Assembly (NCBI GenBank): GCA_009777815.1
Contig: WRLB01000016.1
Span: 1 to 32,362 of the forward strand
Length of the DNA: 32,362 bases
From: Bacteroidota bacterium
GTDB lineage: Bacteria > Bacteroidota > Ignavibacteria > Kapaibacteriales > UBA2268
Direction of reading: 5' to 3'
Shown here: positions 16,878-24,063 of the stretch, in pieces
How the letters are laid out: each line of letters starts with the position of its first letter
Position numbering within the stretch: the first letter of the stretch is position 1
Translations under genes and position numbers: made by a program
The notes under the pieces: generated by a model
Told to the model about the DNA's origin: nothing
The model's database searches: none
The model's input: only the letters and a program-made list of their open reading frames with translations

Positions 16878-18380
16878 TTATCTAACATTTCTTGCGTTTT
16901 TCAGCATAAAATGAAGACGATTATGGACATTTACATCACTTACGCCACTATCAAAATCTAAAAATAATAAATTCATTTTTGGATAATGTTCTTTAATTTT
17001 CTTTTCTATTCCTTTTGAAATAATGTGATTTGCGATGCATCCGAATGGTTGCAAACTTACTACGTTTTGCACATTATGTTTATCAAAATTGCCTATTTCG
17101 GCGGGTATTAGCCATCCTTCTCCGAATTGTGTTGCTAAACTAATTATCTTTGCTGCTTCGCGGGCATCTTCATTTATATCACCAAAATCTGTCCATAATT
17201 TATAATTTTTTGCTACATCAGATACTTTTTTCATTGCTCGCTTTAATTGTATTTGCAATATTTTTGGAACTATATCATTAAACACATTTCTTTCCACTAA
17301 ATTCAAATCAACATCTGCTTTTCTATTTACAAAATACTGCACAAAAAAACTTAAAAGTGAAGGCATAACTACCTCTGCACCTTGCTCCACCAACCAATTT
17401 ACAACACCTTTATGTCCCACATTATTATATTTTACATATATTTCGCCAACAATTCCTATTTTCGGCGGTTCTTTAGATAAATCCAGCACGTTGTTAAAAT
17501 CTTCTACAGCCGTTTCAAGCAATGATAATAGCCCTTTAGAATCTTTATTACGAACATAATTTTGAGATTTTTTTATATACTTATCTCTGATATTAGTAAT
17601 ATATTCTATCGTTGTCATTTCTTTTAATAATTCTTGCTTTAAATCCTTGCTATGAGCAACTGCACTATAATACATTTTAGAAATAGAATCAGCAAAAAGT
17701 ATAGCATACATAGCAATATTTATAAGTGGTTTCCAATCAAGCACAAACTCCTGCTGATTATTAATACCATCACTAAATGCAATACTAATCACAGGAATAT
17801 CATTATAATCGGCAGCAATCATTGCTTTTTTAATAAGCATAATATAATTAGTGGCACGACATTGCCCACCCGTCTGCGATATGCCAAGAACTATATCCTT
17901 CGTATCATAATCACCCGACCTCAAGGCACGAATAAAATCACCAATAACAAGTGTCGCAGGATAACATATTTCATTATTAGAAAATTGCAAACCAAGTTGA
18001 ATGGACTCATCATTACTTGGCGGAAGCGTCTTAATTTTGTAACCCATCATTTCAAAAAATGTTTCTACAAACGGCGAATAAAAATCGGAAAAATGCGGGA
18101 CAAGTATAGTTTTCTTTTTATCTGTTTTTTTGTATATAGGAGTTTGCGGTAGGGGTTCAGATTTAATATCTTCTGTTCTTAATTTAAGTGACTCAAGCAA
18201 AGAACGAACACGTAGTTTCAGCGAGCCGATATTATTTACGTCATCTACTTTAAGTAGTGTCATAGTTTTGCCTTTTGCTTTAAGAATTTCTGCTACTTCA
18301 TCTACAACAAAAGCATCAGGTCCGCAACCGAAAGAAGTAATTTCTACAAAATGTATATCGGGTTTATTATTTTTATTCAT
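16878..18380 (-). CDS. 2-hydroxyacyl-CoA dehydratase activase-like protein, C-terminal module only
   Basis: HFVEITSFGCGPDAFVVDEVAEIL...LLKVDDVNNIGSLKLRVRSL, QLGLQFSNNEICYPATLVIGD, GISQTGGQCRATNY; no ASKHA ATPase domain in the ORF or directly upstream. Confidence 0.8.
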   Translation of the reverse strand: MNKNNKPDIHFVEITSFGCGPDAFVVDEVAEILKAKGKTMTLLKVDDVNNIGSLKLRVRSLLESLKLRTEDIKSEPLPQTPIYKKTDKKKTILVPHFSDFYSPFVETFFEMMGYKIKTLPPSNDESIQLGLQFSNNEICYPATLVIGDFIRALRSGDYDTKDIVLGISQTGGQCRATNYIMLIKKAMIAADYNDIPVISIAFSDGINNQQEFVLDWKPLINIAMYAILFADSISKMYYSAVAHSKDLKQELLKEMTTIEYITNIRDKYIKKSQNYVRNKDSKGLLSLLETAVEDFNNVLDLSKEPPKIGIVGEIYVKYNNVGHKGVVNWLVEQGAEVVMPSLLSFFVQYFVNRKADVDLNLVERNVFNDIVPKILQIQLKRAMKKVSDVAKNYKLWTDFGDINEDAREAAKIISLATQFGEGWLIPAEIGNFDKHNVQNVVSLQPFGCIANHIISKGIEKKIKEHYPKMNLLFLDFDSGVSDVNVHNRLHFMLKNARNVR

Positions 18381-18448: not shown

Positions 18449-18600
18449 TGCCATACTGAATTTATTTTGGCATCTCCTTGTTTAATAAAGGGATTCCGAA
18501 ACAAGTTCGGTGTGACAGAAGCAAAAATTCGGTTATTCAGCAAGGGGGCAAGCCCCCTTGTTAAAATAACGATTGTTTAACACGGGGGCTTGCCCCCGTG
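18449..18600. repeat. Dispersed hairpin repeat followed by two 20-bp palindromes
   Basis: catactgaatttattttggcatctcc...gggattccgaaacaagttcggtgtgaca; CAAGGGGGCAAGCCCCCTTG (18541-18560); CACGGGGGCTTGCCCCCGTG (18581-18600). Confidence 0.9.
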
Positions 18601-18603
18601 CTA

Positions 18604-18729
18604 TTTTACTCGTATTTAACAACATTTTACTCGGACTTAACTAATTTTTACTTATTCTTAACAACTTTTTGCTCGGAATTAACAACTTTTTGCTTGGACT
18701 TAACAACTTTTTGCTCATTCTTAACTAAT
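18604..18729. repeat. Tandem array A: six consecutive 21-bp units
   Basis: Units: ttttactcgtatttaacaaca / ttttactcggacttaactaat / ttttacttattcttaacaact / ttttgctcggaattaacaact / ttttgcttggacttaacaact / ttttgctcattcttaactaat. Confidence 0.95.
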
Positions 18730-18798
18730 TTAATAACAAATTAATAATCTCACTTTACTAAATATATAAAAACTTTAATTAGATAAAAACTAAAATCA

Positions 18799-19024
18799 GT
18801 AGGATTTCCTCCTCATTAGGTAGGATTTTCTACTCATTGGGTAGGAAATCCTACTCATTAGGTAGGATTTTCTACTCATTAGGTAGGAAAACCTACTCAT
18901 TGGGTAGAAAAACCTACTCATTGGGTAGGATTTTCTACTCATTAGGTAGGATTTTCTACTCATTGGGTAGGAAAACCTACTCATTAGGTAGAAAAACCTA
19001 CTGGTTTTGGGAGGTAATCCTACT
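18799..19024. repeat. Tandem array B: about ten 21-bp units plus a degenerate end unit
   Basis: Units gtaggattttctactcattag / gtaggaaaacctactcattgg etc. The 14-bp inner element GTAG....CTAC is a near-palindrome; the linker TCATTRG is constant. Confidence 0.97.
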
Positions 19025-19077
19025 AATTTTTTAATGAAAAGTATTTGTCATTTTGCACTTATTTCGGCATCTCTTAA

Positions 19078-19197: not shown

Positions 19198-19953
19198 ATG
19201 AAAGCAAAATATTTATTATTAATAATTTTTATATTCTTTGCATTTGGAAGCATAGAAGTATTTTCGCAAAATCTCTCGCTTCCAAAAATTTCATTAGGAG
19301 TAGATGAAACAAATAACTCGCCACAAGAATTTTCAACAACTATCCAAATACTTTTAGTACTTACTGTTCTTACGCTTGCTCCATCAATTCTTGTAATGAT
19401 GACTTGTTTTACGCGTTTTATAGTAGTATTTCATTTTTTAAGAACGGCTTTGGGAACTGCTACTCAACCGCCGAACCAATTACTTACCAGTTTTGCTTTG
19501 TTTCTTACTATATTTATTATGCAGCCCGTATTGAATGAAGCAAATGAAAATGGTTTGCAACCTTATCTAAATGACGAAATTACGCAATCGGTCGCTATTG
19601 ATAATATGATGTCACCATTTAGAGATTTTATGCTGAAACATACAAGGGAAGAAGATTTAGGACTATTTATTAAACTAACAGGCGGCGAACAACCTAATTC
19701 TATTGAAGATGTATCTATTTGGTCTATTATTCCTGCATATACAATCAGTGAATTAAAAATTGCTTTTCAAATAGGTTTTCTTATTTTCATACCTTTTTTA
19801 ATGCTTGATATGATTATTGCATCTACTCTTATGTCGTTGGGGATGATGCTTTTGCCACCTCAGATGATATCTCTTCCTATTAAGGTTTTGTTATTTATTT
19901 TAGTAGATGGCTGGTATTTAATTGTAGATTCATTAATTAAAAGTATCGGTTAA
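19198..19953 (+). CDS. fliP: Flagellar type III export apparatus protein FliP
   Basis: SILVMMTCFTRFIVVFHFLRTALGTATQPPNQLL; IIPAYTISELKIAFQIGFLIFIPFLMLDMIIASTLMSLGMMLLPPQMISLPIKVLLFILVDGW. Confidence 0.96.
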   Translation: MKAKYLLLIIFIFFAFGSIEVFSQNLSLPKISLGVDETNNSPQEFSTTIQILLVLTVLTLAPSILVMMTCFTRFIVVFHFLRTALGTATQPPNQLLTSFALFLTIFIMQPVLNEANENGLQPYLNDEITQSVAIDNMMSPFRDFMLKHTREEDLGLFIKLTGGEQPNSIEDVSIWSIIPAYTISELKIAFQIGFLIFIPFLMLDMIIASTLMSLGMMLLPPQMISLPIKVLLFILVDGWYLIVDSLIKSIG

Positions 19954-19996: not shown

Positions 19997-20839
19997 TTAA
20001 TATGTTCTTATTCCGCCTGTCCAATATTCTACTTTATCATTGATAATTTGAATAACACCGATACCATATTCTTTTGCTTCTTTTATTGCGTCTTTATCAA
20101 AACTTGCTCCGCCAATACCTAAAATTATCTTATATTTTGCAAACTCTGAAAAAAGTTTTCTAAAATTATCTACTTGTTCTGTTGCAAGTTTAATAACATC
20201 TTGTATTCGGACTCTGTGCTTTGTTTCAATGAGGGAAATAGTATCGCAATTAGTTAAAACTATATCAAATTCACCTTCTAAATTAAGTGATTTTATTTTT
20301 TTATGTTTATTTATTTCTATGTAATGAAATTCAATTCCTGCGAATTTCATATCTTTTTCTAATGAATTATAAATCATTTGTTCTGCTGCAATTCCATTGG
20401 AATCGGCGACACCAGCGATATTGCGAGTAAGTTCTTTTATTTTTTTATTCGTTTCTGCGGAATTTTCTTTTATTTGTCTATCAGTTTCGGCGGATCTTTT
20501 ATCTGCCGCTGCAGCCATCTCTTTGATTTGTTTGTCGGTTTCGGCAGCCCTTTCTTTTATCATTTTGTCGGTTTCGGCGGATCTTTTATCTGCCGCTGCA
20601 GCCATCTCTTTGATTTGTTTGTCGGTTTCTGCGGCTCTTTCTTTTATCATTTTGTCGGTTTCGGCAGCCCTTTCTTTTATCATTTTGTCGGTTTCGGCGG
20701 ACCTTTTATCTTGTGCTACCTGCATTTCTTTTAATGATTTTTGGAATCTTGTATTCTCTTCACTTATTTTGATATTCTCTTCACTTATTTTAAGAATTGC
20801 TTGATTAATTCTATCAAGTATTGTGTTATTATCTGTCAT
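19997..20839 (-). CDS. Hendecad coiled-coil protein with C-terminal PD-(D/E)XK-like nuclease domain (DUF3782-like)
   Basis: Repeated (K)xIKERAAETDK units; then GEFDIVLTNCDTISLIETKHRVR (D...ExK) and KIILGIGGASFDKDAIKEAKEYGIGVIQ. Confidence 0.75.
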   Translation of the reverse strand: MTDNNTILDRINQAILKISEENIKISEENTRFQKSLKEMQVAQDKRSAETDKMIKERAAETDKMIKERAAETDKQIKEMAAAADKRSAETDKMIKERAAETDKQIKEMAAAADKRSAETDRQIKENSAETNKKIKELTRNIAGVADSNGIAAEQMIYNSLEKDMKFAGIEFHYIEINKHKKIKSLNLEGEFDIVLTNCDTISLIETKHRVRIQDVIKLATEQVDNFRKLFSEFAKYKIILGIGGASFDKDAIKEAKEYGIGVIQIINDKVEYWTGGIRTY

Positions 20840-22002: not shown

Positions 22003-22392
22003 TTATGCTCCTTTTATATTATCTATTTTATATCTATTTAGAAAATCGTTTTTATATTTTATTGCTTTTTTTATTTCATTTTCAGGCACTTTTTCTGTTT
22101 TTTTTATAAAAGTGTGAGTTAATACAATATAATTTTCATAACAAAAAAAGTATAATGTTCTAGTGTTATCGCCTGACAATTTAATTCTTAATTCATAAAT
22201 ATCATCACCTAAATAATCACATTGTGGTCGTCTTAATTTAAATCCTTCATTTTTTAATAATTCTATACATATTGTCATCCATTCTTTTTCATCTTTGGAT
22301 AATGTTTTCATAAAATCTTTTATTGGGCATTTACCATTTTTATCTTTATATAATTTTATGTTCCATTCTTTTTGTTTTATATCTTTTTTCAT
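22003..22392 (-). CDS. HigB/RelE-like (phage Gp49-like) toxin
   Basis: IKDFMKTLSKDEKEWMTICIELLKNEGFKLRRPQCDYLGDDIYELRIKLSGDNTRTLYFFCYENYIVLTHTFIKKTEKVPENEIKKA. Confidence 0.85.
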   Translation of the reverse strand: MKKDIKQKEWNIKLYKDKNGKCPIKDFMKTLSKDEKEWMTICIELLKNEGFKLRRPQCDYLGDDIYELRIKLSGDNTRTLYFFCYENYIVLTHTFIKKTEKVPENEIKKAIKYKNDFLNRYKIDNIKGA

Positions 22393-22535
22393 TTCATTTT
22401 AATTACACACAAAAATAACAAAATATTTAAATATTTTACTAAATACTTTACTATTTTTCTGTCATTCTGAACTCATCTCAGAATTGCCTTTTCTTAATTA
22501 GTAGATGCTGAAATTAGCACGACATAACAGATTTT
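22365..22535. repeat. Direct duplication, copy 1 (toxin 5' end + promoter + hairpin repeat)
   Basis: attctttttgttttatatcttttttcatttcattttaattacacacaaaaataacaaaatatttaa...ttttcttaattagtagatgctgaaattagcacgacataacagattt; near-identical to 22756-22914. Confidence 0.93.
22410..22417 (-). promoter_or_regulatory. TAnnTTTG-type -7 element upstream of the toxin; duplicated at 22801-22808
   Basis: TATTTTTG on the minus strand, 18 bp before the toxin start; identical motif in duplication copy 2. Confidence 0.55.
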
Positions 22536-22558
22536 TTATATAAAATCTTTAAAAAATT

Positions 22559-22748
22559 GCTCTATTTTATGGGGTTATTTCTCTATTTAGTCGAGTTATT
22601 TCTCTATTTTATGGGGTTATTTCTCCATTTATCGGGTAATAACTCCATTTTATGGGGTTATTTCTCTATTTAGTCGAGTTATTTCTCCATTCAGATTGCT
22701 AATAATTCTATTTTATGGGGTTATTTCTCCATTTTATGGGGTTATTTT
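22559..22748. repeat. Tandem array C: about nine units of 20-21 bp
   Basis: Consensus CYATTTTATGGGGTTATTTCT, with variants ctatttagtcgagttatttct, ccatttatcgggtaataact, ccattcagattgctaataatt. Confidence 0.93.
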
Positions 22749-22755
22749 TAAATCA

Positions 22756-22914
22756 ATTCTTTTTGTTTTATATCTTTTTTCATTTCATTTTAATTACACA
22801 CAAAAATAACAAAATATTTAAATACTTTACTATTTTTTCTGTCATTTCAAACTCGTTTCGGCATTACCTTTTCTTAATTAGTAGGTGCTGAAATTAGCAC
22901 GGCATAATAGATTT
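22756..22914. repeat. Direct duplication, copy 2 (vestigial toxin start + promoter + hairpin repeat)
   Basis: Same sequence as copy 1 with few changes; on the minus strand encodes MKKDIKQKELI* (toxin starts MKKDIKQKEWNI). Confidence 0.93.
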
Positions 22915-22929
22915 AGTCCCCTAATTTTT

Positions 22930-24063
22930 TCACACTTTTGCTATATCTTCTTGTTGTGGTATTTCAAAATAATTTGCTTTTTTAGAAATGTTTAGTAATA
23001 TCCCAACAGATACTGAATACATTATTATTGCTGTTCCACCATAACTAATAAAAGGTAAAGGAAGCCCTGTGGTAGGCACAATACCAACATTAATGGCTGT
23101 ATGCATTAAAAAATATACAGACAAAATTAAAACAATTCCTGTTGCTAAATAAAATCCAAATGTATCGGGTGCCCTTATAGCCACTTTAATTCCCCGCCAA
23201 ATAATTATGCTAAAGCCAATTATAATAGCCAATGAGCCAATAAATCCCCACTCCTCGCCTATTACTGCAAAAATAGAATCACCATATGATTCAGGTAAAA
23301 AAAGGTGGCTTTGTTTACTTTTGCCTGCCCCTAATCCTACTAAACCACCAGAACCAATAGATATTAGTGATTGAGTGGCATGATGTTCAGGTTCATTATA
23401 TCCTAAAAATGATAAAACTCTTTTAGCACTATAACCTTCGGACATTACCGCCACACCGCATAATAATATGCCCACTAAAAAAGCAACCAATAAGTATTTT
23501 TTATTTATCTTGCCTATAAACATTTGTGAAATTCCTATTATAAAAATTAAAATCATATTTGATCTGTTTTTTTGATAAAGTAGAACTAAACAAACTAATA
23601 ATAAACAAAGTATTAATGGTGCAAATGCTTCTTTGAAACTTTTTATACATTCCTGTTTTTTAGTTAGCATTGCTGCGAAAAAAATTACTAATGATAATTT
23701 AACTAATTCTACGGGCTGAAATAAAGGAAGAAAACCTATACTTAACCATCGCTTTGCACCATTATGTTCTGTTCCCCAGATGAGAACGAAAAATAGCAAT
23801 AAAAAGGAAATTAGCATAATCGGTTTTGATAATTTTTGCCAAGTATGATAGTTAATTCTGGAAAAGCAAATAATAGATAATATTGAAACTGATACCATTA
23901 AGATATGTCGCATAAATAAATATGTTTGGTCGCCGAATTTTGCGATTGAATATGGTGCACTGGCACTATATACAAAAACTACTGATAAAGTTAGCATTCC
24001 AAGAACAGGAAGCAATATCCACCAATCCAAATACGTTTTAATTTTGTTTAATTTTGTTTTCAT
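22930..24063 (-). CDS. ftsW: FtsW/RodA/SpoVE-family lipid II polymerase, FtsW-like
   Basis: HNGAKRWLSIG, QPVELVKLSLVIFFA, DSIFAVIGEEWGFIG, AINVGIVPTTGLPLPFISYGGTA. Confidence 0.88.
   Translation of the reverse strand: MKTKLNKIKTYLDWWILLPVLGMLTLSVVFVYSASAPYSIAKFGDQTYLFMRHILMVSVSILSIICFSRINYHTWQKLSKPIMLISFLLLFFVLIWGTEHNGAKRWLSIGFLPLFQPVELVKLSLVIFFAAMLTKKQECIKSFKEAFAPLILCLLLVCLVLLYQKNRSNMILIFIIGISQMFIGKINKKYLLVAFLVGILLCGVAVMSEGYSAKRVLSFLGYNEPEHHATQSLISIGSGGLVGLGAGKSKQSHLFLPESYGDSIFAVIGEEWGFIGSLAIIIGFSIIIWRGIKVAIRAPDTFGFYLATGIVLILSVYFLMHTAINVGIVPTTGLPLPFISYGGTAIIMYSVSVGILLNISKKANYFEIPQQEDIAKV

Follow-up and report, generated by a model that had tools for sequence, protein, structure and literature searches.

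Whole-array and end-unit inversion in a family of 20–21-bp tandem repeats from a Bacteroidota genome

Introduction

Tandem repeats of 20–21 nt, constant in size and variable in sequence, have been described in Bacillus and other bacteria (Subirana & Messeguer, PMC8161180). Their size corresponds to two helical turns, they generally do not code, and their function was left open in that work. Constant-size bacterial repeats have no agreed explanation.

Here we ask how one such array came to carry near-palindromic cores in both orientations, joined by linkers that all point the same way. An earlier note on this DNA had offered two answers: local inversion of cores at their GTAG/CTAC arms, or selection to keep a dyad. 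The window, that is, the whole stretch of DNA analysed (32,362 nt), is contig C16 of a draft Bacteroidota genome (1.94 Mb, 121 contigs, 73% complete). The array, array B, is found within the 817 bp that separate two divergently oriented genes. One of these partially matches DUF2229 (CoA enzyme activase; 16878–18380, minus strand), and the other is fliP of the flagellar export apparatus (19198–19953, plus strand; PF00813, E 6e-77). The closest FliP in the named collection, 80% identical, comes from an Ignavibacteria MAG, and the array is absent at the orthologous fliP locus of that relative. Positions 19997–20839 encode a 280-aa protein of 33-bp (11-residue) coiled-coil repeats without a Pfam match.

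Results

Read directly in the sequence, array B consists of ten 21-bp units (18799–19008, plus strand), each a 14-bp GTAG....CTAC core followed by the linker TCATTRG. This is the layout that had been described, with three departures: the core of unit 1, GTAGGATTTCCTCC, ends in CTCC, that of unit 3, GTAGGAAATCCTAC, forms a third class, and the tenth core is followed by TGGTTTT. The strict GTAG/CTAC arms show one change in 80 sites. A-rich and T-rich cores do alternate irregularly, as reported, in the order T', T, A', T, A1, A2, T, T, A1, A2. The array lies outside coding sequence, with stop codons in the frame that encodes the heptapeptide GEIPTQR in relatives described below.

The A-rich cores differ by 1–2 mismatches from the reverse complement of GTAGGATTTTCTAC and by 3–5 from GTAGGATTTTCTAC itself. 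Summed over the three A-rich types this gives 4 mismatches inverted versus 12 direct (P = 0.0017, six inner letters shuffled), so the second core class is indeed close to the reverse complement of the first. A chance origin was rejected. The linker occurs nine times as TCATTRG and never as its reverse complement; because it forms part of a weak second dyad, CTACTC-ATT-RGGTAG, a flip would be visible at only three of its seven positions. A CRISPR array was rejected, as the linkers are near-identical and there are no spacers, and a phage or plasmid origin was rejected for want of a match in the phage or plasmid collection.

These observations within a single array would suit the flipping of individual cores by hairpin-loop inversion, in which a hairpin is extruded at the GTAG/CTAC arms and its loop alone is inverted by template switching, with the linker left in place. 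Besides the significant reverse-complement relation, the loop of unit 3 (AAAT) is the exact inverse of the loop ATTT in a second copy of the array, on contig C43, and small inversions between hairpin arms are reported for plastid and avian genomes. Comparison among copies nevertheless makes this account unlikely. Across five sister arrays, 40 cores outside the last two positions have similar arms and none is A-rich; inversions elsewhere in the family take in the linker; and A1 and A2 each lie one or two bases off an exact flip.

A composite present at three loci (C16, C43, and C89) includes array B, preceded by part of array A and a spacer and followed by a short right flank. In the window, array A occupies 18604–18731 (plus strand, 21-bp units TTTTTACTCGGACTTAACAAC), the spacer on array B's left spans 18720–18798 (plus strand; 94–96% identity to its C43 and C89 counterparts), and the right flank, kept at both other loci, spans 19025–19052 (plus strand). 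Array A is also present alone elsewhere in the genome (C5). Around the composite we read directly a hairpin at 18542–18559 (AAGGGGGCAAGCCCCCTT), a degenerate dispersed palindrome at 18466–18518 (GGCATCTCC...GAAACAAGTTCGGTGTGACAG), and a degenerate half of the same palindrome at 19046–19073 (TGTCATTTTGCACTTATTTCGGCATCTC). A further hairpin lies at 18581–18600 (CACGGGGGCTTGCCCCCGTG), and related hairpins adjoin the C43 copy; none of these four features is assigned a strand.

The three copies differ in orientation. Counts of TCATTRG/CYAATGA are 9/0 in C16, 8/0 in C43, and 0/6 in C89. With flanks aligned, the C16 and C43 interiors match directly (alignment score 98, versus 55 inverted), whereas the C89 interior matches in inverted orientation both C43 (101 versus 51 direct) and C16 (86 versus 45 direct). 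The ends of the C89 array were read from the alignment, since an automatic end search placed them poorly. Relative to both flanks, C89 has its entire interior inverted, and the linkers with it. The claim that the linker never flips thus holds within array B (9 versus 0) and fails in the family.

A degenerate inverted end unit, GGGAGGTAATCCTACT (19009–19024, minus strand), closes array B and matches its left end in reverse complement. Compared end to end as inverted repeats, the array is identical at 28 of 37 positions in C16 and 32 of 37 in C43; as regards the terminal inverted repeats typical of MITE- or BOX-like elements, the array ends are inverted repeats and the outer spacers are not. Many arrays of other families likewise terminate in one to three inverted units, and in inverted end units of the family the linker flips together with the core. 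Inversion in this repeat family is real, as the earlier note had supposed, and, where visible, occurs at the level of the array interior or of one to three end units with the linker included; flipping of individual cores is not needed. Two further loci show opposed orientations: at L156:15462–15689 arrays of one unit adjoin in opposite orientations, and at L157:1335–1766 a related unit occurs in both orientations and forms a 143-aa ORF.

Inverted end units also bear on the source of the A-rich cores. Among the 50 cores of the five sister arrays, four are A-rich and all sit at the last or second-last position (hypergeometric p ∼0.0009), a placement that fits an inverted end unit, with its core in reverse complement to the rest. 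Units 4–6 of array B carry the same three cores as units 8–10, and the A1–A2 pair that ends the run of cores on the right also makes up units 5–6, each time after a T unit. A1 and A2 are found only as this pair, twice (p 0.024, shuffling); the three-core block repeat taken alone gives p 0.10 (shuffling). These patterns suggest that the A-rich cores of the window derive from end units and were spread when blocks of units were duplicated, which appears to be their simplest account. The duplication is not clean, as the linker R sites of units 4–5 and 8–9 mismatch, and it leaves unit 3 (AAATC) without a partner.

We then place array B among the tandem repeats of its genome, sampled as stretches totalling 806 kb. 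Seventy-one of the 122 intergenic tandem arrays found by TRF have a period of 20–21 bp, and they represent at least 22 families with unrelated units: length is fixed and sequence varies between arrays. In relatives the share was 12 of 40 intergenic arrays (604 kb), a figure biased upwards by a sample partly chosen by hits, and in the genome of the FliP relative (G055) it was 2 of 14 (273 kb). A member of another genus of the same family (G071) also has long arrays of 21-bp units that differ in sequence from one array to the next, although some of these loci were located via a 7-residue protein repeat and that part is biased towards 21 bp.

The families are species-specific: array B has strong matches in its own genome only and weak matches in eight others. 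Elements with ends AATTAGTAACGTTTT...AAAACGTTACTAATT (L164:3120–3310 and other loci of G000) enclose different 20-bp arrays, of the GCGAAACGC and TTAACTCTAATA families, and have 28 matches in their own genome and none in 53 genomes of the same family. Informally, we observed that TTTTACTC recurs in several arrays; the motif TTTTACTC[GA] is common to 21-bp arrays in three genera (L031:1460–1680 in G107, L258:509–692 in G071, and window positions 18604–18731), and the rest of the unit differs. The window holds another array of 20–21 bp and unrelated sequence, array C (22556–22747, plus strand; ATTTCTCYATTTTATGGGGTT), which lies between direct repeats of ∼170 bp that are 85% identical (22380–22930), as though duplication had involved a larger block surrounding the array.

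Dyads are commoner in the units of several families than in shuffled units (combined p 0.001), and most families taken singly show no significant dyad against shuffled units. Over 20 dyad arrays, variation amounts to 9.1% in arms, 9.0% in loops, and 7.8% in linkers. With arms as variable as loops and linkers, selection to keep a dyad, the second earlier proposal, is not supported in general. Selection for phasing of A/T at one helical turn was also rejected, being weak (Fisher p 0.007–0.011, harmonic 2) and equalled by harmonic 3 of A/T content.

The same data bear on a functional binding platform, in which each unit would bind one symmetric protein dimer on one helix face, serving to structure the nucleoid or to regulate the divergent genes. 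The constant two-turn spacing and the dyad enrichment in some families are in keeping with it, and a protein polymerising on constant-size repeats has been proposed (PMC8161180). Set against this, different arrays have unrelated unit sequences, a significant dyad is missing from most families, conservation of the arms does not exceed that of loops or linkers, and copies occur in every gene orientation and within genes. We regard such a platform as improbable, somewhat more so than the flipping of single cores. A role for the array, once transcribed, as a structured or small RNA seems very improbable: a fold of −126 kcal/mol (z −13.9) is obtained for the 281-nt stretch, and transcription of 52-nt repeats is discussed in PMC8161180, yet such fold strength is expected of any tandem palindromic unit, the shuffle control is weak, and all Rfam matches fall far under the curated cut-offs, so that identity with an Rfam RNA was rejected.

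Relatives of array B also occur within ORFs, at C12, C67, and C32, as GEIPTQR or KPTQKVE heptapeptide repeats. From their Pfam domains we take the ORFs to be MutS2, SppA (by its peptidase S49 domain), and RNase R (by its RNB and S1 domains). Residues 420–620 of MutS2 have no counterpart in 11 relatives, whose matches stop at ∼419 and resume at ∼620, and SppA residues 317–427 are absent from four relatives. By these alignments the MutS2 and SppA repeats are in-frame insertions absent from relatives. The N-terminal part of RNase R that contains the repeat is poorly conserved, and the comparison does not show an insertion there.

In MutS2, encoded at L020:12092–15085 (C12, minus strand), the insertion of ∼200 residues has the Walker A and Walker B regions on either side and consists of palindrome peptides and two heptapeptide arrays. 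The peptides beside the arrays, CHAELVSAS and MPKQVRHD, are the translation of the dispersed palindrome, degenerate copies of which border array B. In-frame insertion in conserved genes, as known from Rickettsia palindromic elements, is thus seen in relatives of array B but not in array B itself; in the intergenic copies the heptapeptide frame is broken by stop codons, including six TGA in C89. An isoleucyl-tRNA synthetase-like ORF at L161:11752–14961 (C34, minus strand), with a class I synthetase domain match over residues 21–1054, contains a very large insertion of coiled-coil and heptapeptide (EKPLMQS) sequence. Among arrays of at least 2.8 copies, all 15 coding ones have a period of 21 bp and none a period of 20 bp, and the intergenic ones divide into 20 with 21 bp and 22 with 20 bp (p 0.0002), a contrast that is partly a product of ORF calling.

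Discussion

We consider it probable that array B is a minisatellite of constant size (20–21 bp) and variable sequence, set between inverted end units in a three-copy composite, with its A-rich cores spread by block duplication. Most likely it is tolerated repeat DNA and not a switch. Such arrays would gain and lose length through slippage or unequal recombination, with a step of roughly two helical turns. The quasi-palindromic nature of core and linker alike would allow an end unit or the whole interior to be inverted, through recombination or template switching between the array's inverted ends, and in the window a later block duplication may have carried the A-rich end-unit core inwards, producing the irregular order of A-rich and T-rich cores. 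Two points weigh against this account: the genome is a draft (121 contigs, 73% complete), and arrays of 21-bp units can be collapsed or scrambled when assembled from short reads.

Slippage at 20–21 bp alone leaves the preference for that size unexplained. A broader and more speculative possibility, which we hold to be rather unlikely, is that a genome-wide process duplicates DNA in two-helical-turn steps regardless of sequence and inverts units at palindromes; it would have filled intergenic space and written 7-residue repeat inserts into core proteins, and constant-size satellites would then be the signature of a mechanism and not of a function. The occurrence of one family both between genes and in frame in MutS2 and SppA helps to tell these hypotheses apart, since a binding platform or small RNA is not expected in coding regions and size-locked duplication is. 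Flipped end units provide markers for following array growth and inversion.

REP/BIME arrays consist of tandem palindromic units with linkers in intergenic regions and are mobilised by RAYT (Y1) transposases. Array B shares the intergenic tandem palindromic units with linkers; unlike RAYT-associated REP/BIME, it has no accompanying Y1 transposase (PF01797) in the 73% complete genome, and RAYT mobilisation was rejected. In layout, the composite resembles pneumococcal BOX elements (boxA-boxB(n)-boxC, PMC3049150), being dispersed, with conserved flanks and a variable tandem core, although boxB is one conserved module and here the unit sequence varies among families with size alone kept. Rickettsia palindromic elements (PMC10969869, PMC3767692) are likewise dispersed repeats in frame in unrelated metabolic genes, but they are single palindromes of ∼100–150 bp, whereas here tandem arrays adjoin palindromes.

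A close parallel is offered by the repeats of Subirana & Messeguer (PMC8161180), which share the 20–21 nt unit, its length of two helical turns, the unrelated sequences, the several families per species, and the absence from relatives. Unlike those repeats, one family here is both intergenic and in frame within housekeeping genes, and arrays show inverted end units and whole-array inversion. Array B is a member of this known class, to which its genome adds three features that we did not find in the cited literature: inverted end units, whole-array inversion between copies, and a family that extends into core genes.
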